Part shown: one piece after another, positions 5,266 to 60,226 of the stretch
How positions within the stretch are numbered: the first letter of the stretch is position 1
Layout of the letters: every line of letters begins with the position of its first letter
Assembly (NCBI RefSeq): GCF_949628215.1
Contig: NC_134276.1
Span: forward strand, 132,432,125-132,496,124
Direction of reading: 5' to 3'
From: Phalacrocorax aristotelis
Taxonomy: Eukaryota > Chordata > Aves > Suliformes > Phalacrocoracidae
DNA: 64,000 nucleotides
Notes under the pieces: generated by a model
The model's input: the letters and a program-made list of their open reading frames with translations, nothing else
What the model was told of the DNA's origin: nothing
Database searches by the model: none
Translations under genes and position numbers: made by a program

Positions 5266-5901
5266 TGTGGGCTTCATGGGAAAGAGCAAATTTATTATTA
5301 GATGTTTGAGGGGAACTGTGGGACCGTGTAAAGTTTATCATGTGATGTTTTTAAGGAAGATTATGGGAGCAAAACTCATTATGAGATGTTCAGGGCAAGG
5401 ATTGAAGGAGGGGAAAGGGAAGCATCAAGCTAGATGAGGGAGATGCAAGCATGGGAAATGGAGAGGATAAATAGAAGGGGCGAGTCGCACAGAAACTGGC
5501 TGCTGGTCAGCGAGCTTGTCTGGCTGAGCCCTGCGCCCGATTACCACCATCTGTCCTGGCCTTGTATTAAACTAATCCTAGCTGTTTCCTCTGCATGCTT
5601 GCATATTTGTGATCTGCTAGCAAACTGCAAGCTGGACTAGCCCTTAAGTAGGATAAGAGGTCTGAGAGCCAGATACCAGGCACGCCACAAGTCTGAGGAC
5701 CAGCTACCAGCGATCCATGGAAGTGCGTGCACACAATCCACTCGGATGCTCTAGGTTTGATGGGCCAGGGAGTAAGAACAAGATTAGGCCTTTTTTGCCA
5801 TTCATGTTTTGCGAGTGCTGTTTGTCTTTTCCAGGGCACCCGCCCACCACAGCACTTTTGTTTGGTTTCTGCTAACCGGTCTGTGTCTGGTTGCATCTAC
5901 A
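5266..5901 (+). mobile_element. Probable solo LTR of an old endogenous retrovirus (fossil)
   Basis: The stretch has LTR-like order. A U3-like part carries imperfect tandem copies of a unit of about 45 bp (about 5270-5395, recurring ATGTTT/GATGTT blocks). A TATA-like GATAAATAG follows near 5466, then an ATTAAA poly(A)-type signal near 5567 and a U5-like tail. A TG...CA-type boundary pair (TGTGGG at 5266, CTACA ending 5901) is plausible but not proven, and no clean target-site duplication was found. No internal retroviral genes adjoin it, so it reads as a solo LTR, a fossil. The family is uncertain and the boundaries are approximate. Confidence 0.45.
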
Positions 5902-7058: not shown

Positions 7059-10000
7059 TCACTGTCTGTTTGGTTTCACTCTATGCTTCTTTTTGGTAGG
7101 GACTTGAGGACGCATTGTTTTGGGAGAAGGCCGGCCAGCCTTCAGTGGTCTCCTCTGTGCCTGCAATGAATGTCTCTTCTTCAAAGCAGGCTGTGGCAGC
7201 TTCTGGTTTTTGTCAACTTTTGATCCCTCGAGTTTCTTCTTTTTTGGCTGAGGCTCCATGACGGTATCAGGGACAGCGGATGGAGCTGCTGCTTCTACAG
7301 CAGGTTCTTCATCTGAAACGAGAGAAAGGTGCTGTAAGAAGAATTCACATGGCTTCTGCAGGGGAAGCAGCCTGTGAAAGCAGGCCCAGGTAGCTCAGAT
7401 GAGCTCCAGCACTAGGTTACCTTTTTGTGCCTGGGGGATAGCATTAGAGAATTTCTTGAACTTAGCAATGAAGAACCCGTCCATATTGTGTGTGTGGGGA
7501 TAGAAACGCCTCGTAGACTTGAGGGAGGGGTGGAAGCGACGGTCCTTGAACCTGGAGGAGGAAGTGGGGTGAGAAGTGATAGAATACCTCTACTCAAACC
7601 TGGCCACCAAGGAACAGTCACCTGTGCAGCTTGTGACCTGGCACGCACCTGGTGAAGCCTTCCTTGCCAAAGTCCAGGCCTGTGGCCACCAAACGAACAT
7701 TGCGTTTCTTCAGGGCATAATCTACAACCCACTCATTCTCCTCCACCTGCCAGAGACTAAGCATTAGAATCCAAAGCTCACCAGTCCCCTGAGCAGAAGA
7801 GGACCACAGCAGACCATGGGACTTACCATGATGGAGCAAGTGCAGTAGACAATGTAGCCCCCTGTCTCTGAGGCAGCATTGACTGAATCTATAGCGCTAA
7901 GAATCAGTTCCTTCTGCAGGTGAGCACAGCGCAGGATGTCTTTCTCATCCTGAAAGAGAAAGATAGGTTAGGATGTCAGAGGCACAGGGAAGCACCCCAG
8001 GCCTCTGTTGTGTATGGAGGAATGACAGGAGAGCAAAGCACATATGATATAGAAGATTCTGAAGTCTTCTGCAGAACTGACCTCAAAAAAACTAGCTCTA
8101 GTACAACATGCAGAATAGGAAAGAGAAGGGGGGGGGAAAGAAAATCAGTGTCCTGATTGCAGGCATCTCTCAAGAACAAAGCTGCCCCAAAGTCCTTCCT
8201 CTCTGCAACTCATACTTGAGTCCCCATCTTGAAGTGTCCCTACCGGTCACTCACCTTGTTGGTTTTGACAGCAGGATCCTTGGAAATGACGCCTGTTCCA
8301 CTACAAGGAGCGTCAAGCAAGACACGGTCAAACCCTCCAAGTACCTACAGGCAGATATACATTTGGAATGACGCTCGTAGGTGGGGACTCAGAACAAGAC
8401 CAAGACTAGAAGGGGAACCAGAAGACTGGGAAGGCAGGGAAGATCCCTCTCTCCTCCCTGTCCACCCTCCTGCCTCCATATCAAATAACAAACACACTCC
8501 ACAGCAGCTCTGTGCATCCTTCTGTGACAAGTGGCCTTGTGGAACACAGCTTTACTAAAGGAACAGCACAGCAGCTCTAGGTAAGCATGGTAAGAACACC
8601 CCAAAGCCAGCAGGAACATACCTTGGGGAACTGGCGTCCATCACAGTTACTCACTACAGCATTGGTGACCCCCAGCCGATGCAAGTTCCCTACCACACTA
8701 CGTAGCCGCTCTGCATTGCTGTCATTGGCCAAGATCACACCTGTGTTCTTCATAAGCTGAGCTGCCAGAGGGCAAAACACATCAGCAAGGGGCTCAAAAC
8801 CTCCTGTGCTTTTGCCCATAAAGGCAGCAACCCCACTCCTTTCCCCGAGTTCAGTTCCCCCCTCCGTTCCCCTTTTCTGTATAGACCAGTAGAAGCTCAT
8901 CGCTTCACAGAGCGTCCCTCCCAAGCCTTCTCCCCAAGGCTCCAGGCTGGTACCTATGTAGGTGGTCTTGCCTCCTGGGGCACAGCACATATCCAGAATA
9001 CGTTCATTTTCCTGCGGAGCCAGAGCCATGACAGGGAGGAGACTAGAGGCTCCTTGAAGCATATAGTGCCCAGCCAGGTACTCAGGTGTGGCACCTGGGC
9101 AGGGAAGACAAAACAGAAGATGACACATGAAAGAAAGGGAGCCAAGAGCAGGTCAGCCCAGCTCTAGGACAGGAAGGGTGATCTCACCAATAGGCACAGA
9201 GGAGTCATAAATAACAAGTCCCGTTTTTGACCACTTCCCCAAGGGGTCGAGATTCACGCCACGGTTGATTAGAGCCTGCAAGACAAGGAGATGGGACTGA
9301 GACACTGCCCCATGTGACAGGCAGCGCAGGAGACAACCATCGTTTCATCCTGACCTGCGCCAGGTCTCGTCGCCTCGTCTTGAGTGTGTTGGTGCGGATG
9401 GTCACAGGGCGGGGAACCTCATTGGCTTCCAGGAAGTTTATCAACTGGATTAAGGAAAGGACAAAGAATAGAGATAAAAATGAAGACCCGAGGAGGCAGG
9501 TAAATCCTCATCAGTCAGCAAGGATATGGGCAGGGCAGGATCCTACCTCAGGGAGTGGGAAGATATCCATGAGCTTCGTGAGCAAGAAGTCACTGTAAGA
9601 ATAGTAGGCAGCCATATCCCGGCGCAACAACGCAAGGTACTCCTTTCGTGTACGTCCTTCTTCCCGCTTCACCACAAAATCCTGCAGTACCTCCATGTTG
9701 CCCTTGATGCGCTGGTGAATGACATGCAGGTCAGGCGGCTCAGCAGGTAGAAAGACCATTAAGGAATCATAAATGGCCAAGAAACTCACACACAGGCTCC
9801 TTACAAGCACAACTGCCCACGCAAGACTCCTGCATCACAACAGCACCTGCACCAGAAAAGCCTTGTTGGAATTGGCTTTCATCAGAGCTCAGCAAAGCGG
9901 GAATTCAAAGGATGGAACCAGACAAAAGAGTTCACAAGGAAGGAACTACAAGGTATTTAAAAGAATTTGGCTAGTTACTTTAGATAAACAGGAAAAAAAA

Positions 10001-13614: not shown

Positions 13615-33537
<19,923 letters not shown>

Positions 33538-33839: not shown

Positions 33840-34690
33840 GGGAGAAGACACCGAGGCAGGGACGGCGGCTGGGCTGCCGAAAGAGACCTTGGGCCCGGCG
33901 GCACGCTGTCAGCGAGCAGCGGCAGGGAGCGGGTGGCCCGCGCGGGGCCCGGTACGGCGGACAGCGGCGGCGGCACCGGCCGGCAGCCCTCGACTCGCCC
34001 GCCCCGGGCTGACACCGCCGCGGCCGGAGAGGAGCTGCCCTCCGCCTCCTCCGCCGCCGGCCCCATACAAAAGACAGGGCAGGCTCGGCGGCGCCGTCAA
34101 CCCCACTCCGCTGCCCGCCGCACCCGCGCCCCCGCCCGGAGCGGGGCTGCGCGGCGCAGGGCGGGGGCGGCGGGAGGGGGCGGGGGGGGGAAGCAGCGCA
34201 GCGCCTCGGCGGGGCACGGTCTCCCGAGCGGGGGCGCGGGGCGGGGACGTCCGGCCCGCATGCGGCGAGGGCCGCCTCTCCCCAGGGACAGGCGCCGGGG
34301 CGGGGGCCGAGCGACAGGCGACGGCCAGGGGCTGCGGAGACCGACGCGGCGGCCGCTCCCCGGCGCGACCCCAGGGAAGGGGAGAGAGGGAGGCGTCCTG
34401 CGGCCACTTGGGCAGGGGTACGGCGCGGCCCCCTTGTGGGGAAAACTGCGGCCGGGGGCCCGACGGGGCGCCCGGCGGAGAGGGGCGCCCGGTGGCAGGG
34501 ACGCCCCGGGAGGCGGTAGAAGGCCCTCCCCGCCCTCGTCCCCGCCCGGCTGCTCACCCGGCTCCAGACCCCGGCTCCTCTCTCGCCGCCGCTGCCGCCG
34601 CTGCTGCTGCTGAAGGGAAAATGGCTCCGACCCCGGCACCGCCTCTTAAAGGGGAAAAAACCCGGCCAGGCCCCGCCCCGCTCCCGCCTC
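33840..34690 (-). promoter_or_regulatory. CHD4: CHD4 CpG-island promoter
   Basis: A very GC- and CpG-rich block covers the presumed transcription start and the 5' part of intron 1, without a TATA box. A YY1-like GCCATTTT (minus strand, about 34618-34625) sits at the expected start region. The long open frames here come from lack of stops in GC-rich DNA and are not genes. Confidence 0.7.
34558..34650 (-). other. CHD4: CHD4 untranslated exon 1
   Basis: A strong GTGAGC donor on the minus strand follows GAGCCGG at 34558. It is preceded by a CAG/GGC-rich leader typical of CpG-island first exons. There is no in-frame ATG, which agrees with the non-coding first exon of mammalian CHD4. The 5' limit is approximate. 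Confidence 0.6.
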
Positions 34691-35213
34691 CATCCCATAA
34701 TATGCCCCGGGACCCCGGCAACCGTCCCCGCCCCCGTCTCCCCGGCAACCCACCCCCCCCACCCGAGACATCCCATAATACGCGCCCTCCCCTCAGAACT
34801 TCCCACTCACTGCCCGGCCCGGCATCCCATAATAACAACAACCCCTCCCGCCGGGAACATCCCATAATAAGCGGGGCCCCCCCCGCTCCGAGAAACATCC
34901 CATAATACTCCCCACGCTCGCACCCCTTCGTTCCGGCATCCCATAATACTCGCCCCCTCCCCCCCACCCCCCCCCGCCTAGGACCCCGCGCCAGGGCAGG
35001 GCGCCCCTCGCTGCGCGGCCCCTCGCCCGCACGCGCGCGCGCCGCCTGGCCTGCCATCCCATAATAGGCACGTCCCTCCAGCGGGGGGAGGAGAGGGACA
35101 CACTGTAGTAACCCCCAGAACATCCCATAATAGTCACACCCCCTCCCCCCCGCCCAGGCAGGCATCCCATAATACTCGCCGGGAGCCACCGTCCATCCAT
35201 CCATCCCATAATA
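34691..35213 (+). promoter_or_regulatory. Proximal ZNF410-type motif cluster at the CHD4 promoter (10 exact CATCCCATAATA)
   Basis: Exact copies start at 34691, 34769, 34823, 34858, 34896, 34937, 35055, 35121, 35163 and 35202, all in the plus orientation, that is, reversed relative to CHD4 transcription. Spacing runs from 35 to 118 bases and is most often 35-55. They begin within about 50 bases upstream of the presumed CHD4 exon 1. CATCCCATAATA is the known target of the five-finger protein ZNF410, which in mammals activates CHD4 through clusters at the promoter and about 6 kb upstream. Binding in this bird is inferred from the sequence. Confidence 0.9.
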
Positions 35214-35939
35214 CTCGCGTCCGCCAGCCCGCCCCGCAGCCCGCGGGGCTCTGTCGCGCCCCCGCCCCACCCCACCTGCCCGCTGCCCCCGGGGCACCGC
35301 TCGCCGCCCTGCCCCTGGCCCGCCGCGGCGCCGTCGAGGTCCCGGGGCACGGGGCCAGCCACGCAGCCTGGAGCACCCTGGCATCGCCCGGCCCCTGCGC
35401 GCTGCCCGCTGGCACAGGCCCCGGCACAGGCCCCGGGCGGCCTGCAGTGGGCACCACCCTCCCCCGGCCGCAAGCGCCGGGTCCCCGCCGACGGCCCCCG
35501 CTTGCTCCCCTTCCTCATCCCACACGGGGAGGGACAGTCGGCCTCTGTGGCAGGTTTTCGCCTCCATGCAGAGTGGGCTGGAGCCTGCCATGCCCCATCC
35601 CCACAGGGCTGCAGGGCCCCACCATGGCCGTTTGTGCCCAGCCTGTGACATCCCACCACACAGGCGATGCTGTTGCCAGCCAGCGTTCAGGCTTGCAACG
35701 CAAGGCCTCCTCTCCTGAGTGCTGGTACCTACAGAACTATCTGTACCACAGGGACATGCGGCATCTCCATGTACTCCGCTCCTCCCTCTCACCCCGTACC
35801 TAGCACCGCACGCTGCTCCCTGCTGCAGCCCTCCGCTGGGAAACGCGTCGCTTTATATGGATGTGAATAGTCCATAGGTATAAATACACCCCAATTATGC
35901 ACGTGAAACTGTATAATTAATTTCCTATTAAAAAATTCA
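35214..35939. other. GC-rich CpG-island shoulder, then ordinary sequence
   Basis: To about 35500 the DNA is very GC-rich and continuous with the CHD4 CpG island. After that it returns to ordinary composition. No gene is supported. Confidence 0.5.
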
Positions 35940-35951
35940 CATCCCATAATA
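35940..35951 (+). promoter_or_regulatory. Isolated exact CATCCCATAATA motif
   Basis: One exact copy of the ZNF410-type 12-mer sits in AT-rich DNA about 0.73 kb beyond the proximal cluster, in the same orientation. A decayed relative, TATCCCATAACA, lies at 36268-36279. It could be an outlying site or a remnant of a once larger array. Confidence 0.65.
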
Positions 35952-38900
35952 CCGCCTCCTATCCCACATTTAGCATATTCGTAAAGCTATTAATCTCAGC
36001 AAAGAGGCATAGTCTGTCCACCTCTCCCAGTAAACTTGCGAGCGTCAATGACTCTGCTTATTCCTCCTCAAGCAAAACGCCTCCACAGTACTGTGCCTGG
36101 TGGTGCGTGTGCACGTTTCATCCCGCCACTGTAAAAAATCACCGAACACAACTGGAGGATTTACTGTTACAGCCTGCAACGGGTTGTTACAGATCCCGTA
36201 ATGCGATCCACACTTTGTCTGCCAAACCACGCCAAAAATATGTCCACGCATACACCAGGCATGCAGGTATCCCATAACACCACCCCACTGCCTTTGCTGC
36301 ATGCCAGAGCATCTTGGACTGTCGGCAAACTCTCCCCTACCTGCAGACGCAGCCCCCAGTTGCCCACTTCTTGCACCAGCATCTCTCTGCCGAGATACCA
36401 TCAAGTTCTGCCACCTCTGCCATGTGTCCGTCACTGCCATGTGCTCTGGCGCAGTCCCGCACTGTGGAATACGCATGCACCTACTCCACAGCAGGAGCTG
36501 CCCCTCCTGCGCATGTCCTTCCCACCTCGCCAGCAAAGACTAGACCCCATGTCCCGAAGTGCTGCTGTGTTATGCACCTTCTTGCACACACCAAAATCCC
36601 ACCAACCCTCCAGCCAGCTGCGGTACACACAAGTGCGCTATCCCTGACCATATAGCTTCGCCTGAATGACAATGATGCTATCATTTATCTCAGCTCCATG
36701 GAGGAAAAGCGGTAAGGAAGAGCCATGCTACTATTCCACAGATGTTATCCATCCTCCACACGGATCAAGCGTAACAGAATATCTAGCCCTACGGAAACGT
36801 ACGGTGGATAATGCCACTGCCAAACTCATGCGGACCCCCGCAGGAATTTTCATTCCCTCTTTTGTACACTGACAGCCATAATCCTCTCTAATAGGAGCCA
36901 GGCGGACAGCCACGCCAAATTCCTGTGTGGAGTAGCCTGGCCCCAGCCAGTGACCGCCGGGCTCCGCACATCCCTCTTTCTTCCAGCAGTTGGGTGGCAT
37001 GGTGAGAGGTACAGCGCAGGCGAAGACCCTACAAAGAGAGGTAGTTACTGGGGCTGTCTCTACAGGTGCTCCCCAACGCTCTTGCTGGCAGGGTTGTGAT
37101 ATGGAGAGGGCTGTTTGTCACCGGTTAGTCAAGGTGCACCCCAGAGCTTCAGTCACCAAAGTGCTGAGCTTCCCAACGAGCCACTGCTTCCCTGACATCT
37201 TTGTACCACACCTGAACACATTTTTGTCAGGAAAATACCCCCAAGGTTCTCCAACTCACTTCCAATTCATTTCTCCTTGTAACTCAAAGTTTCTCAGTCA
37301 GCAGAAGCCTTAATTTTCACTCTAAAAAAAATCCATGCAGGATACAAGTGATTATGGTTAAGGTGTTCTTAGTGTTTGTGAGGGCCAAGTAGATTAAATG
37401 GATTTAAAAAAAAATGAGACTTCTGCATGTTTCCTTTTGATGATAACACCATGAGATATAGATTTCCAGCTGTTTGGCTGCTTTAAACCTGGAAGTTGCC
37501 CTACCTTACCATGGTTTGATTACTTACCCGGTTTAACTGAATCTTCTGAGTTTATAGCACTTGGCTTGGAAACAATTAGGGCAAGATCTGTGTAATAAAA
37601 TCTTCCCTACCTGCTGACGGGTGTCAATGCCCCAAACAACCCCACAGCGCACTTCTGTTGGGCAAAACACCTGCAACACTCTCTTGCTTTGGTGCTGCGC
37701 CTGTGTTAGGGAAATCCAAATTAACCAGAGGACCCTCCACACACCCCTGCCTGGCTCTGTTTCTGAGGACAGCTGGGTAAAGGGGGCTCTAGACCCCTAC
37801 AGCAACATGCTGGCACGGCCTCCAAATTATTTCTGTAGTTTTGTGCATGGTCTGAGTCACTCAGGGTTGAGGTCCCAGCCTGGGGACCCAGGAGAGAGCC
37901 CTGCCCCACCTTCCTCCATGTTGCGGGCAGCCTCCCCTGCCCAGGCTTTATCAGGCCCACAGCCCTTTCTCGGTTTCACTTTCAACAGAGACATGTTTCT
38001 CCAAGGTAACAAGAAGAGCAAAGTGTGACATGTTTCACCCTGGTGGGTACTTGTTCAGTGTTTCCACTTGGGCACGAATGGAGGCCAGAAACCTTCGTCC
38101 AGGGTATTTCAGTGCTGCCCAATGTGGGAGGCAAGGGCAGGGGGGAGGGGAGGGACTCCAGAGCATTTGGGAAAGAACAGAGACTTTCCAGGCTAGCGTG
38201 AACCATTCATATGCAGGACACATAAAACAGACTATAAGCGTGACTTGCTGGTGCTGCAGACAATGTGATCCTAGAGGTCAGTTTATGGTCTCTCAGGTTA
38301 TTTTTTGTTAGCTCCTTTAGTGTCCAGTAACAAAGCAGAGGTGCTAACGGTTTTAGATGCTAGACGTTGCGATGGTGCCTTTGTATGGCTTTATTTGGGT
38401 TCTGGGATTCAGATGTACTTCTGTTTTACTCTTCTTCATTTTTGCTGTTCCTCTGACTGAGGGTTGCTCTAGCCTGACTGTAATACCCGTTTTGTCAGGT
38501 TACATACAACTAGTAACATGAAAAATATCTTTCGGTATCTCTGTAAAGCAGGTATCATCCGATGTGTCCATAAATGCGATGCTGTTCCGCAAAGGCTGCA
38601 GGTACATTTCACTTCTTCCTTTAACCCAGTTTTTATAATTTGTAGCTAATGTGAATGGACTTACCCCTTGTGTTTTCTGTCCAGCACCCCTGCAGGCTCT
38701 CCTGGTCATAGTGATCCTTGCCATGACTCTGAGCTGAGGTCTTACAGCTTCTGCCAAGTAACCTTGAAGATCTCAGGATTTCTGAGAAGTCTTGCCTTTT
38801 GTATTTCTTTGGTAAGGCAGAGAATTTTGCCCTAGAACGTTTTGAGAGGAGAGGGGTATCAAGCTCCCAGAAAAGTAACTTGTACTTTGAAATTAGTAAT

Positions 38901-41320
38901 AAACTGGTCCAAACTTTCACTCAATATTCAGTTATTGTCCAGAGCCTGTGTCTTTTCAACCCCACCCCCCGCCATGTTAAACTATCTTGAGAGAATCCTG
39001 TGTCTCCAACATTAGCCAAAGCAATTGTCCTGAATTCTGCAAGTCTTCCCCAACGCTACAAAGCTGTTTCCTCTGCCTGAGATACCCTTCTCCACTTCCA
39101 GATTTCTGCAAAGTCTCCACTGCAAGCTAAGGAAATCTAAATGATCCATTTTCATTGTTGCTTTCTTCATTGTGGCCCCCACCCCTATTCTATTTGTTTG
39201 TTTGATTTGTTTTTTTCACAGAGAAGCATGAGCTTATTTGTTTAGCACAATGGAAGTATCTTTGCTTTGGTGTCAGACATGGAAGAAAATGACACAAGAA
39301 ACAGTCTCCTCCTCTTGTGGAGAAGAGACAAGAGCCCTTCCTGTCATGTCCAAGCAGCTACTCCTGGAGCAAACAAATGCCACTGGAACAAGAGGCAGAG
39401 AGAGACCTGCACACAGAGAATTTGGGAGAATACAACCAGAATATGATCAAGATGCACTGAATAGATGATGTGTGCTTCTTTTTTGAGAACATCATCCTAG
39501 TATCAATGGAGGATCCAGCCTCCCTAACGGCCACCTAGGTGAGGACTGTCCATATGCCAGCATGACTCTGCATCTACTTCCCGTTAGAAGAATGGCAGTT
39601 CAGACTTCGCTCTGCCGTGGTCATGAGCCTCATCTCCTGTTTTGCCAGGAGAAGGAGGGGGCAGGGTGAATGGTGCGGCCGTGCAGCCAGAGCCACACCA
39701 CGTCAGCCAGCCAAGCGCGGTGCATGAGGCAGGGCTAACAGCAGAGAACTGGGGGGGGGGGAGGGAAGGTGGAGAAGATTGGGGATTGCTCAGCCCCCTG
39801 TAAATGTGAACTGTTGATCTCTATCTCTGTATGCTTTCCTAGTTTGCTTGCTTTAAAAAACATCACAGACTTACTTGGTACTGACACCTATAGCTAAGGT
39901 TACTTGATATTTTCCATCACAAGTCTGTTTTCAGTTACTCAGAACTTTGCCAGACATCAGACATTCAGATTTTAATTTTCCATGTTTGCCTTCACCTTTT
40001 TTTTTTCTGATGATGGAGGAACTTAGTAAGATGCAAGAAACAAATGTTATTTTGCAATTGTCAAAACTTGACTTTGTAACATTACCCGTCTTTTAACGTA
40101 GAATGTTGTATATAATGAAAAATGAAAGCTGGAAGTGATGCCCAAAAGTTAAGGATACTTACTAGTTACCATTTTTAGGTTTCCATTCCCCTAAAGTGCC
40201 TTAGATAGATGCCCTGCTCCCCTCTTCATGAAACAAATTGTTGGATCCATTCAGAGAAGAAGCAAGTGTGGACTCAAAGGGACTGCAGTAACAGCTTCCT
40301 GCTTCAAGCTGCCTGGATTGCAATTCTGTGACACCTATTTTTGCGTCCTGTATTAAAGCTGGTGGGTTCTGGCAAAAATCACTTACACTGAAACACATCT
40401 CTTGAGCTCAGTTAGCAGAAATACTGAAAAAACAGGCTGGGACAGAATTCTCCTTCATCTCCTACCTCCAGCTGCATCTGGGAGAGGTGTTTCCAGCACT
40501 GTAGCCAGCAACAACTGTGCTACAGGAAACAGTGCAAATAAGCCTAGAGGTTGTATACCCCATTCGACTGGGTACGAACCCCACTACTGCTGAGCAGAGC
40601 TGATGGAGTCAGGACAGAGGAGGTCATGCAAGGCTCAAATCTGAATGGTGATACCTAAGCCACCTTCAGCTCGAAACCAGCCAGAGGTTTGCAAAGCTGC
40701 TGGATCCGTGCGTGTCTGCAGGAGGTTTTCCCTTGTCCCCTAACAGGCAACAACCAGCCTGGTAACTCTGGGGCTGTGCCCTCAGCACAGAAACCAATGA
40801 TCACAGATCAGGTCCTACTCCGAGATGAACTACTCAGGGACGGGTCTTGCTTTGTGCCATGCATGTGCACATTGCTTGAAGTTGCCAGCTCCTAGCTTTG
40901 TGATGCTTGGACTTACACGGTAAGTTTTTTTCCTTAAAAAGATACACTGGGACCAATGCTTAAGTGCCTTTCTTATCGCAAGTCATTGGGATGCTCTGGA
41001 GCCCCAGTTTGAAGGGCTGGGTTTTTTTTCCCCTCGCTCAACTGGGAAGGCAACAGAACTTGCTTTGCGAGTAAGCAGAAGCCTACAGACTCCTGAGGGC
41101 GGGAGCGCCCAACGGCAGCCTCGCCATCCTGGGGACCCAACCAAGAATCTCTAGAAAACTCACGTGAAGTTGGCATAGACCCCACCGCGTTTTTGTCTCT
41201 GCCTGCGGCTGACGAGTCCCTGCTTTTGCATCCTCCCGCCGCGCTGTCCCTCCCCGGGGGGCGGCGGGGCGAAGGCCCCCAGCACCCCTCCGGGGCAGCC
41301 CCACCCTGCCGAGCCCGCCA
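35952..41320. other. Interval between the two motif clusters, no supported gene
   Basis: I see no spliced coding series, no RNA gene and no clear transposon here. Several short open frames exist, all without recognised domains. It forms the spacer of about 6 kb between the promoter cluster and the distal cluster. Confidence 0.5.
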
Positions 41321-42075
41321 CATCCCATAATAGTTCACAACGGCGAGTCTATCCCATAATAGCCACCCACGGGAAATGCTCCATAGCAACCTTCCCCCCC
41401 ACACTCCACCCCACCCCCACCCCACCGTGGAGCAGACATCCCATAATACCCTGCCAGCTTTATTGGTTATGACTGCTGAGAGCAGGGGAAGGGGAGCCGG
41501 GGCGAGGGGCCACACGACGGGCGGGACGGGGACACCGACGGGACGGGGGGTGGAGGGAGTCCCGGCGGGCACCGCCAGGAAGCCCGACTGGGGCTATCAC
41601 CTCCCCCCCTCCCCGCCCCAGGCTGCACCGACATCCCATAATAACTCCCACCCTCCTCCCCGCCCCCCCCCGTCCGCTGCATCCCATAATAGTTCCCAGG
41701 GAGGCAGCCGCTGTAGGTACATAGGCATCCCATAATAGTCGTCCGGTCACACGCGCTGGGAATGGTGCCATCCCATAATACTCCCTCTCCCCTCACGCCG
41801 GCTGCGGCGGGCCCTGCCATCCCATAATAGCCTCCTGCTCTCCCTCCCCCCCCGCCTTATGGGGCATCCTCATCCCATAATACTCCCCCAGCGGCAGGAG
41901 GGCCTGCCATCCCATAATACTCCCTGCCACCCACCTGCCCCCCTCCGGTCGCGGGAGGCCTCGCCATCCCATAATAGTCGCGGCTCGCCCTCCCCCGCCG
42001 CAGAAGGCCTCGCCATCCCATAATACCCGCCGCTTGCCCTCCCCCTCTCCCCCCGGCCCTCGCCATCCCATAATA
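41321..42075 (+). promoter_or_regulatory. Distal ZNF410-type motif cluster upstream of CHD4 (12 exact plus 1 near-exact)
   Basis: Exact CATCCCATAATA starts at 41321, 41437, 41632, 41680, 41726, 41769, 41818, 41871, 41908, 41965, 42014 and 42064. A single-mismatch copy, TATCCCATAATA, is at 41350. All are in plus orientation. From 41632 on, the spacing is strikingly even (37-57 bases, mostly 43-50). Several units share flanks such as GAGGCCTCGC before the motif, which points to tandem duplication. The cluster is about 6.7-7.4 kb upstream of CHD4 exon 1, like the distal ZNF410-bound CHD4 enhancer known in mammals. Confidence 0.88.
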
Positions 42076-42420
42076 GCCGCGGCGGAGGCCTGACCCCGTG
42101 GGCAGCAACCGGCTCGGCTCGGCCCGGCCCGGCCCGGCCTCCCCCCAATCCCCCCTCCGCCGCCTCCCCTCTGCCCCCGTCACCGGGTCGCCTCGCCCCG
42201 GCCTCGCCACCCGGCTCTGGGCTGACTTCACCCTCGGCCGACCCTTCCGGCGGCCCCGGGCCCGCTGCCGCCCCGGCTCTCCGGGGCTGCCCCCCTGGCC
42301 CGCGCCCCCTCAGAGCCCCCGTCGGGGCACCCCCACCCCGGGGCCGTCCTCCCTCAGCGTTCTGCACCTACTGCCCCAGCCCCGGTGCTGCCCACCATAC
42401 CCCGGCCACCCTTCAGTTAG
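42076..42420. promoter_or_regulatory. CpG-rich flank of the distal cluster
   Basis: A very GC-rich, CpG-dense block continues the CpG island holding the distal motif cluster. It could be an unmethylated enhancer or the promoter of a non-coding transcript. No coding exon is supported. Confidence 0.45.
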
Positions 42421-50400: not shown

Positions 50401-50639
50401 ACTGACCTGTGCGATGGGCGAGATTACTTTCAAATGCTTTTATTGTTGTTGTGTGTCTGTTCATCTCGTACTGGGGGGAGGGAGTTGCTGTCCTGACGAC
50501 AAAATTAACTTCCCTTCTTCCCGGGGAAGAAGCGCTTGCACCTTTACTTCCTTCTGTTTTACAGCTTCTTCCCTTTACTACCATCTTTATTTCTTTTTGA
50601 ATTGCTTTTTCCCAAAGGCTGAGTGGGTCTGAGAAAAGG
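47434..50639. other. Intergenic stretch, nothing recognised
   Basis: No gene, RNA or clear repeat is seen. Frames are short and without domains. Confidence 0.5.
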
Positions 50640-51290
50640 CGAGAACAAGACAGGGAGCCATGCCCCGCTGCACGATAACGCAGGGCAACCAGCCTCGACG
50701 GCTGCAGTCCCGGGACCGAGGCTCCCGGCTAGCAGGGGAGCTCACGCACGCCCCGCGGACACGGGGTCCCACCCGCGGGCCCCAGCCCGGCCCTCGACAG
50801 CCGCTTCCCCCTGGGGAGAGCCGCTGGGTGCCCTCGGCCCAGGCCCGCTGCTTTGGCCCTCTGGGCCCGGCCCGGTGCAGCGGGTGCGGTACCGTCCCCG
50901 CGGCGCCTCGGAGGGGGCCGGCGCTGCATGGCGCGGAGCCCCCCCGGTCCTTCCCCGGGGCGTGGTCCCGCCTCGGCCGTGTGCCCGCAGCCCCCCAGCC
51001 GGTTCGGCCCCGAGGAGCCCCGCCGCCGCCGCTGCCGCCGCCGGGGGCCGCTGTTGGCCGCGGAGAGCGCGGGTCGGGGCGGGAGCGGGGCGGGGAGCGG
51101 GGCGGGGCGCGGGGGGCGGTGGCGGCGGGCTCCTCCGCCCGGCTGGGAGCCGCTCTGCTGCCAGCAACGGCCCCGGTGCACCGAGGGGGGGGGCCCGTGT
51201 CCCCCTTTGTATCTAGCACCGAACACGCCGCGCGTGTGTCTGTGCCTGTGTGCACCGTCGCCGGGGGAAGTAGAGCTGCAATCATAGACA
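50640..51290. promoter_or_regulatory. Orphan CpG island
   Basis: An abrupt, very GC- and CpG-rich block lies between CHD4 and LPAR5 and is downstream of LPAR5, so it is not the promoter of any gene called here. It contains long frames on both strands with Pro/Arg/Gly/Ala-rich products, typical of GC bias. It probably marks an unannotated transcript start or an enhancer-type island. Direction is unknown. Confidence 0.6.
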
Positions 51291-52431
51291 CGTCATTTTG
51301 GATTCGGAAATTCTCTTCTTGTTTCAGATAAAAAAAGAAACGCCAAAACCCAACCGACCCAAATCACGAAAGCATACGGTAATGTTGGTCAATACGAAAT
51401 TTTTCGTCGCAAAACATTCATTTTGGTGAAAGCACTCCCTCATTTCAGCTAACCCTGGCTGCGTCTGGTTCGGTGTGTTTTACCCACGCAGGCTCTTAGG
51501 AGGGCAAAGAACAAGAGACTGAGAACCCGCAGGTGTCCCTCTGAAGCTGGGACAGGCTGTTCCCGGTGTCACAGCATGCTGAGGGTTTGGTCCTGTCATC
51601 TGAGTCCGTTCCTGATGCACTGACAGGTTGCTTTGTAGTTCAGTGACGTCAGTACTGCTTCCTCCTTTTCCCCTCTTTTTTTTTTTTTCTTTCTTCTTTT
51701 TTCCCCAATAAAGTCAGGAAAGGTCTCTTATCATCACTTTGTGGTGAAAAGTTTGATCCTTCCCCTCCACCCCTTGCCCTCCTGGAAAAAAGTACTTTCT
51801 TGTTTCCTTGTAATTCAGGGTCTGAAGCAGGGAGTGACTGCCTGTGCTTCAGCAGGTAGTATTTGCAGGGCAGGGAGGTTTTACAGCTAGCCTGGAATAC
51901 TAGATCACCGCGCCCTTGTCACTGTTACTGTCTGAGTGAAATAGGTTAAAGCAGGGATAGCTGTGTCTGGCTTTACCACATGCAGATTTCCAAATATCCT
52001 AAAAAAAAAAATTAGCAGAACAGCAGGTGCTTCAGTGATATTACACTATTTCTTCTCATTTTATTTGGGAGCCCTCAGAGACTGCTATCCCACTCTGTAA
52101 AGTGCTACGCAAGCCAAACAAAAAATGATCCATGCCCAAATATCTCTTCGAGTGTATGAGCAGAGACAGGCAGGTGACATGGAAATGTGGAAAACGGCAT
52201 CATTCTGTTAGCATTGCAGAATGCAAGAGTTTGAAAGAAAGGCTTCAAAAGGAACTCATGAAATGCAAAGCTTAAACTGGCCACTCTCAGCCACAGGATC
52301 ACAGACTCCAGCGGCAGCTGGAAGGCACAGGGTACACAAAGTGTAATCCAGGCAAGAACAACTATAAGTGGGAATGATAATGAAGAAGGTAAAAAATGTT
52401 TGAGACCCCAGATCAGCATCTAAAACACAAG
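51291..52431. other. Intergenic stretch beside the orphan CpG island
   Basis: It has ordinary composition with a T-rich run near 51677-51705. No exon series could be joined to the CpG island. Confidence 0.45.
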
Positions 52432-57957: not shown

Positions 57958-59070
57958 TTATATTTCCGAGTCCTCAATAGGGCTATTCAAAAATACTGCA
58001 GTAGGAAGTGGTGGCAAAGATTCATTGGGACGGATAAACTTTTCAGCGGGGAATTGTTTTACTTCTGAGACAGCATGGACTCGGGATGACTTATTCTCCA
58101 CAACCTGATTCTTAAGCGTCCCTATGTCTGAGTCCCAGGCTTGTCCCCTCCGCATTTTCTTAAGGGTGTTACGGAAACCCTCAGTACTAAAGTAGTAGAT
58201 CAGGGGGTCCAGCATGCAGTTCATGCTGGCCAACAGCATTGTTGTAATTAACACTTGGCGCACGGAGGCCTTTGTTTGTTCCTCTACCTTCATCACCTGG
58301 GCCTTTATCATCCCATAAACTGCCAGGGTAGTGTTGTAAGGCACAAAGCAGATGATAAAGATGACCAGATTGACAAAGAGGAGACGGACAGTCTTCTGCT
58401 GTCTCAGGGTCTTCGTTTGGCTGTCCTGGCAGAGCTCCTGAAAGATTCGAATTGAGCAGTATGTCACAGAGCTGAGAGGCAGGAGAAACCCCAAGATTTC
58501 AGCCAGGACAACTAGGGGGAAGAGGTTATGCTGCCATATGTCGTTACTAAAGCTTTCAAAGCACAGATAAGTGGTCTGGTTGTGTTCCTCACAGTGGTTT
58601 TGCTTGTGGACTATGGCAGTGGGGATAGAGCCCATGAAGATCACAACCCAGACAAACAGGCAAAGGAGCTTGGCCACCTTGGGGCGCCGCAGGTGCCGCC
58701 AGCGAAGCGGGTGGACAATGGCAACATAGCGATCCAGGTTGATGCACATGAGGAAGAGGCAGCTACCATACATATTGATCTGAAAGACAGAGCCAGAGAC
58801 CTGACACAGGGTGTTACCAAAGGGCCAGTGATGGTTGGAATAGTAGTAGAGTCGCAGTGGCAGAGGGAGTGTGAAGGTGAGGTCACTTATGGCCAGGTTG
58901 AACATGTAGATCATCACTACAGACTTCAGGCGCAAGTAGCGGATGAATATCCAAAGGGCCATCATGTTCAGCATCAAACCTGTAATGAATATCAGGATGT
59001 AGCCAGGCAGGAGGAAGTGGTGGTTGAAGCTGTAATCCTTGCATGTCTGAGACACATTGGAAGCTGACAT
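57958..59070 (-). CDS. LPAR5: LPAR5 (GPR92) lysophosphatidic acid receptor 5
   Basis: This is a class A GPCR of the P2Y-like lipid group at the plasma membrane. Mammalian LPAR5 binds lysophosphatidic acid and couples to G12/13 and Gq. The intact 370-residue frame is in one exon, as in mammals (human 372). It has seven hydrophobic segments, N-glycosylation sites at N5 and N164, NLAISD in TM2 (58-63), DRY at 113-115, a Cys89-Cys170 disulfide pair, CFVPY in TM6 (241-245) and DPLIYY in TM7 (288-293). The stretches QINMYGSCLFLM, LRRPKVAKLLCL and YYFSTEGFRNTLKK track human LPAR5 closely, which rules out LPAR4/6 and the P2RY genes. Its position beside CHD4 is as in human. The start is the first Met, 24 residues before TM1. 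Confidence 0.95.
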   Translation of the reverse strand: MSASNVSQTCKDYSFNHHFLLPGYILIFITGLMLNMMALWIFIRYLRLKSVVMIYMFNLAISDLTFTLPLPLRLYYYSNHHWPFGNTLCQVSGSVFQINMYGSCLFLMCINLDRYVAIVHPLRWRHLRRPKVAKLLCLFVWVVIFMGSIPTAIVHKQNHCEEHNQTTYLCFESFSNDIWQHNLFPLVVLAEILGFLLPLSSVTYCSIRIFQELCQDSQTKTLRQQKTVRLLFVNLVIFIICFVPYNTTLAVYGMIKAQVMKVEEQTKASVRQVLITTMLLASMNCMLDPLIYYFSTEGFRNTLKKMRRGQAWDSDIGTLKNQVVENKSSRVHAVSEVKQFPAEKFIRPNESLPPLPTAVFLNSPIEDSEI

Positions 59071-60226
59071 GCCCAGCGGGGATCGGGGAAGGGTCTCACT
59101 GAGATGGCTGAGCCGGCTGGTGGGCTAAGGAGGCACAAATAAAAGCACAGAGAGAAGTCATTCCCCTCTAAGAAGCTATGGGCAGGTCATTCTCCTCATC
59201 TGCGGCTGGGAGGCAGGTGGGCGTATCTCTCTCTTGACTGGTGCTGCTTTGGATTGCTGGTCAGTGGTCATCTGGCAGGGATGGTAGTGTAGTCAGCTTC
59301 TGCCTCTAGTTCAGCAATTCTTTCCAGTGGTTGTGGGGATGCTGATGCAATGGAGGGTCACTGCCAGTTGTCAAATGTCAGCACAGTTCCTGGTCAAAGT
59401 GGAAGTCCAAGATAGGAGAGTTTAAGTGAGGGGGAAATCTCTTGAAAAGTCAAAATCCCACCATGATGGCTTCTGCTGCAAGAACTCACAAAGAAATCAA
59501 AAGACTAAGAAAAATGGGCAGTAGAAAAGTGAGCAGTTACATGGCAGAAGAAGCCAGAGCACAGAGAAGGTAATTGTTGTACAGAATCATTTATCGCTCA
59601 GCCCCAGAAAATGCACGTTACTTTGATCACTGCTGAAATCACATATATACAAGAAAGGGGCAGCACAAGATCACATGGGGAAAGCAGTCAAGGCAGCTCG
59701 AGGAAAAAAAAAGACAGAAAGAAAAAGAAGAAAGCAAACATTTTGAGGGAAAAATGCTGACTGGAAGGAACTTAAAATAAAAACTGCATAGTATTGTTTT
59801 ATATCGGAGAAACAGGACTTTGTACATACATTGCAGATAAAAAGAATTACACTAGTTAGACTTGACTCCACCCTAGCTCCTTTTCCTAGGTGAAACAACC
59901 CACATAAACCTGAGCCCCAGCTAGTTGGAGTTCCTTCTGTGGCTTACATTCATACCATTCCTTTGGTATTCTCTCTTGCATGAGACCAGTGGTGTCTATT
60001 TGGATTGGATGTCCTCAGATCATTTTCCTGCTTACAACACCATAAAGCATGAAGCAGCCCATGTCCCACAAACACAGAGCAGCACACCCAGGTAATGGAG
60101 CACACAGTAAAGCAGGAAGAGCCATGGGATTCATGTGGACAAACATACCTGTGACTCCGAAGTGGTGTCAGACTGGTAACCAATATAGATACTAATGGTA
60201 GCACTGCCCTGCCAAACATTGATCAA
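59071..60226 (-). other. LPAR5 upstream region
   Basis: The 5' UTR exons of LPAR5 probably lie here or beyond the window. Candidate acceptors (CTCCTTAG near 59128) precede the ATG on the minus strand. No CpG island is present, so the promoter is likely tissue-restricted or further right. Confidence 0.4.

Follow-up and report, generated by a model that had tools for sequence, protein, structure and literature searches.

How old is the circuit in which ZNF410 acts on CHD4, and can its regulatory sites be recognised in a bird? Transcription factors devoted to one gene are, to our knowledge, rare. Human CHD4 has 27 ZNF410 sites in total, with the distal element at a distance of about 6 kb, and Lan et al. 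and Vinjamur et al., both in 2021, reportedly described two clusters bound by ZNF410 at mammalian CHD4, one in the promoter and the other in a distal element. The word followed here, CATCCCATAATA, we take to be the ZNF410 site. Available excerpts of the mammalian work place clusters of ZNF410 sites at the CHD4 promoter and at a distal element, and report lowered CHD4 upon ZNF410 loss (PMC9181152); CHD4 holds 23 of 2,894 conserved predicted ZNF410 sites in the excerpted text of a second paper (PMC9426921), and disruption of the sites upstream of CHD4 raises fetal haemoglobin according to part of a third (PMC10253463). The first-pass annotation of this DNA held that ZNF410 acts almost only on CHD4. 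The promoter and distal pair on which that view leans is indeed published, but the second of these papers (PMC9426921) also mentions that ChIP-seq of ZNF410 in one human erythroleukaemia line gives thousands of peaks, which argues against strict single-target action. Among the open-licence papers listed we found none with both the name ZNF410 and CATCCCATAATA, and the titles and abstract openings of those listed (among them 20 of 37 papers that mention both ZNF410 and CHD4, and 10 of 3,229 in another listing) yielded no description of these clusters in birds.

Sites and genes in the window

The window, that is, the whole 64-kb stretch of DNA analysed, contains 23 exact copies of CATCCCATAATA, all on the + strand (equivalent to TATTATGGGATG on the CHD4 transcript strand): 12 in a distal array (41321-42075) and 11 at the CHD4 promoter (34691-35951). 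One further copy with a single mismatch, TATCCCATAATA, lies at 41350 on the + strand, inside the distal array. Our recount thus agrees with the first-pass annotation, which had reported twelve identical 12-mers and one near-copy within 755 bases in one orientation, with correct coordinates. It put the chance expectation under equal base use at about 0.008 per window; the recomputed figure is 0.004-0.009 exact copies on both strands (Markov orders 0-2), and inside the GC-rich distal region, the same models predict about 2e-6 to 1e-5. With up to two mismatches allowed, 31 matches occur, where 100 shuffled windows average 3.7 and never exceed 8. CATCCCATAATA is the most frequent 12-mer of the window, followed by its own overlapping shifts, and the leading word apart from these reaches 6 copies; no 12-mer within the 64 kb is more densely clustered.

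Some scattered copies deserve mention. The exact outlier at 35940 and a two-mismatch site at 36268 occupy AT-richer DNA (35940-36279), separate from the promoter cluster. Beyond the NOP2 frames, an AT-richer stretch on the - strand (5293-5388) carries three two-mismatch copies spread over 96 bp at intervals of 43 and 41 bp; it resembles either the remains of an array or a diverged repeat of separate origin, and no direct repeat was found there. Pairs of CATCCCATAATA 25-55 bp apart numbered zero in a collection of viral contigs and one stretch in prokaryote contigs, counts that bear little on vertebrates; the single case, two exact copies 41 bp apart in an apparent imperfect repeat (390-442 of a Lachnospiraceae MAG contig), is likely a coincidence.

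CHD4 lies on the - strand between NOP2 and LPAR5, which is the human gene order too. The LPAR5 open frame is 92% identical to that of Anhinga, which marks the window as avian, and 82% identical to that of chicken. Among the CHD protein exons, also on the - strand, matches to CHDNT, PHD and CHDCT2 exceed their Pfam cut-offs and a chromo match falls slightly under its own; human CHD4 is the top match for both exons compared with solved structures. The start codon has its A at 33472. The first exon would be noncoding and end at 34558, with a GT donor at 34557 on the transcript strand, and the putative transcription start site (TSS) would fall at about 34.60-34.65 kb. Measured from there, the promoter cluster starts about 40-90 bp upstream, and the distance to the distal array is about 6.7-7.5 kb (7.8-8.6 kb when counted from the ATG), in keeping with the earlier placement of the array some 7 kb upstream of CHD4. 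Both clusters sit in GC-rich DNA with elevated CpG. Between CHD4 and LPAR5, a further GC-rich stretch (50590-51363) combines short GC repeats with open frames that are long in either direction, and is possibly the CpG island of some promoter.

Table 1. Positions of genes and CATCCCATAATA sites in the 64-kb window.
Feature	Position	Strand	Remark
NOP2-type methyltransferase exon(s)	8580..9152	-	Next gene downstream of CHD4
CHD4 coding exons	13728..33474	-	Low-coordinate end approximate (last CHD4-like open frame)
CHD4 noncoding exon 1 and TSS region	34558..34650	-	Predicted from sequence
Promoter cluster	34691..35213	+	10 exact CATCCCATAATA, directly upstream of the putative CHD4 TSS
Outlier site	35940..35951	+	Exact CATCCCATAATA, 738 bp beyond the promoter cluster
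Distal array	41321..42075	+	12 exact CATCCCATAATA and one TATCCCATAATA in 755 bp
Exact distal sites 1-6	41321, 41437, 41632, 41680, 41726, 41769	+	CATCCCATAATA
Exact distal sites 7-12	41818, 41871, 41908, 41965, 42014, 42064	+	CATCCCATAATA
Quasi-regular part of distal array	41601..42083	+	Ten sites, spacing 48 +/- 5.7 bp
LPAR5 open frame	57961..59124	-	388 aa between stop codons; neighbours CHD4 on its upstream side

The locus offers what would mark a distal element of the mammalian kind: a compact group of perfect sites, over ten in number, on the upstream side of CHD4, a second cluster at the CHD4 promoter (10 exact copies and one at 35940) and, in three full bird records, a ZNF410 with the same reading residues. 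Given the site counts, their single orientation and position, the NOP2-CHD4-LPAR5 order, the preserved cores, the recognition helices of bird ZNF410 and the published clusters, the array is very probably the bird equivalent of the distal regulatory element that ZNF410 binds at mammalian CHD4.

Cores, flanks and spacing

Over the 24 sites, the 12 core columns contain 1 change in 288 bases, against 152 changes in the 12 columns to the left and 131 in the 12 to the right. In the distal array the left flanks have a mean identity of 0.38 and the right flanks of 0.35, where random 15-mers of that stretch give 0.33; at the promoter the corresponding values are 0.42 and 0.46, where random 15-mers give 0.37. 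Sorted by mismatch, the distal region has 12 exact copies, one with 1 change and none with 2, 3 or 4, and the promoter region 11 exact copies, one with 2 changes, two with 3 and five with 4. Because the cores are so nearly constant amid changing flanks, and since an unselected, decaying array should keep many of the near-copies that the distal region lacks, the pattern fits selection on each site and not a young satellite.

The two clusters have 74 14-mers in common, each with at least 7 bases of CATCCCATAATA and 61 of them with 11 or 12; longer homology between the clusters was rejected, nothing being common beyond CATCCCATAATA and a few neighbouring bases. This narrow likeness, like the fast turnover of the spacers, would be expected if ZNF410 binds at CHD4 in both groups while birds and mammals each gained a distal array of their own, or if the array was fully turned over, such that an old circuit would be served by a non-orthologous element. 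We consider this unlikely: the gene, the two kinds of place and the number of sites resemble what excerpts of the mammalian papers describe and the human total given above, and the gain of both clusters twice would be a coincidence.

The spacing of the array may tell how it was built. The last ten distal sites are more evenly spaced than random ones (scan P 0.00025, nine spacings, 29-bp minimum), a value that corrects for the choice of the best run and not for the choice of this test, the run having been noticed first. Tandem Repeats Finder (TRF) reports a 49-bp unit in 2.6 copies (41956-42083); the distal array also has repeat families whose register matches that of the sites. The distal spacers resemble one another with a mean local score of 8.25 against 7.21 when shuffled (sd 0.20), and the promoter spacers with 7.71 against 7.22 (sd 0.31), in a comparison limited to spacers of at most 90 bp, which drops one of the 9 promoter and one of the 12 distal spacers, and to sites other than the outlier at 35940. 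This residual likeness, the TRF unit and the in-register families indicate that the spacers are not fully independent. The distal array thus probably grew in the distant past as a unit of about 48 bp was duplicated in tandem, and we read the likeness between units as having since been lost almost everywhere except at the sites.

The same observations (even spacing, residual spacer likeness, the TRF unit and repeat families in register) are those that a minisatellite would leave, its copies multiplied by tandem duplication alone with no protein involved. Like minisatellites as we know them, the distal array combines quasi-regular spacing with remnants of a 49-bp unit; unlike them, it keeps the 12-base core alone. 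The likeness of whole units expected of a minisatellite is absent, since the repeat finder recovers just 2.6 copies and, through most of the array, the other spacers barely exceed the random level; copies with 2-4 mismatches are wanting in the distal region, and CATCCCATAATA forms a second, irregularly spaced cluster 5.4 kb away. A minisatellite origin of this kind is accordingly most improbable. The promoter cluster shows no significant regular period (P 0.53 for phase coherence, and 0.086 at the lowest in the spacing scan), and helical phasing near 10.5 bp did not exceed its null. The longest motif-free gap of the distal array (41449-41631) contains a reverse CCAAT box at 41466 (-) and a TGCTGAG half-site at 41474 (+), and is a possible site for other factors.

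The protein that would read the sites

The ZNF410 finger domain used as reference equals 6wmi in 146 of 146 residues. The helix comparison covered 20 ZNF410 records, none from Phalacrocorax aristotelis; the three full bird sequences among them, from Chaetura, Apteryx and Onychostruthus, share 138, 138 and 137 of the 146 residues with human, and all 60 helix residues, so that all five recognition helices are identical. The four readable fingers of Chrysolophus ZNF410 each equal the human ones, and in the Alcedo model a copy of finger 2 sits where finger 1 belongs. A broader set, from fishes to mammals and with several isoforms of one species, was drawn from the best 120 of 546 and the best 120 of 319 matches: 224 records were reduced to the 178 with the finger 3 word TTAGNL and, after removal of 22 without five readable fingers, to 156. 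Within it, contact residues are identical to human in 156 of 156 vertebrate records for finger 4, 155 for finger 2, 143 for finger 5 and 120 for finger 1; the 156 of 156 for finger 3 is largely circular, as the selecting word fixes three of its four positions. The way in which the middle of the site is read has therefore probably stayed constant since bony vertebrates arose. Among the matches listed, at least eight frog records carry the five-finger block twice, and finger 1 helices are altered in the frog sequences aligned (Hyla, Gastrophryne).

Contacts have been published for the Gln of finger 2 and the Lys of finger 4, as excerpted (PMC12264921), and would fit an arrangement of fingers 5 to 1 on CAT-CCC-ATA-ATA-nTC. 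At the second base after the site T is enriched (12 of 24 sites; P 2.9e-6, the best of 160 tests), as expected from an extra triplet read by finger 1. That CATCCCATAATA is instead read by another DNA-binding protein, or acts through an RNA made from the array, can be entertained insofar as the link between word and ZNF410 is presumed, but is hardly credible given that the two-cluster position at CHD4 matches the ZNF410 pattern in the published excerpts, that bird ZNF410 fingers are unchanged from human, that nothing in 30000-52000 reaches the gathering score of an Rfam family, and that 41200-42200 is free of inverted repeats at least 18 bases long.

Mechanism, age and meaning of the circuit

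Taking the array as the avian ZNF410-bound element, the mechanism would run as follows. ZNF410, a five-finger C2H2 activator, would bind each 12-base site, with finger 1 probably reading a weak 3' extension; a dozen sites in 0.75 kb, together with ten to eleven at the promoter, would create high local ZNF410 occupancy and thereby raise CHD4 transcription, the distal array acting on the promoter across 7 kb. Binding, activation, action over that distance and descent shared with the mammalian element are all steps that we infer.

The nearest known system is the mammalian one, in which, as far as the excerpts go, CHD4 likewise has one promoter and one upstream cluster with more than ten perfect sites in each. 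The word is presumably the same. The totals are close (23 exact copies and one near-copy in the bird against 27 in human), and the bird differs in the regular spacing, about 48 bp, of part of its distal array. Homotypic clusters of transcription factor sites, as generally understood, similarly pack one site many times over into a small regulatory region, but the bird array stands apart in its long word, single orientation and near absence of degenerate copies. The ZNF410-CHD4 circuit, both clusters and their conservation are already in print; new here are the anatomy in a bird, the contrast of cores and flanks inside a single genome, the regularity with which distal sites are spaced and the constancy of the residues that read the DNA.

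Overall, the circuit probably dates back at least to the ancestor that birds and mammals share. The first-pass annotation had argued for an origin before the bird-mammal split, a view to which gene order, sites and protein lend good support. More tentatively, and at somewhat less than even chances, we suggest an ancestral amniote (possibly bony-vertebrate) circuit of one factor and one gene, with selection on every site and a cluster renewed by tandem duplication of about 48 bp; were this renewal real, selection would hold the number and identity of the sites and not their surroundings. The avian version with its two clusters makes it testable whether the devotion of ZNF410 to CHD4 dates back at least to the bird-mammal ancestor, and the array also allows one to ask how extreme arrays of identical sites are built and kept. 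If the circuit is that old, the silencing of fetal globin in mammals, which led to its discovery, would not be what it originated for.
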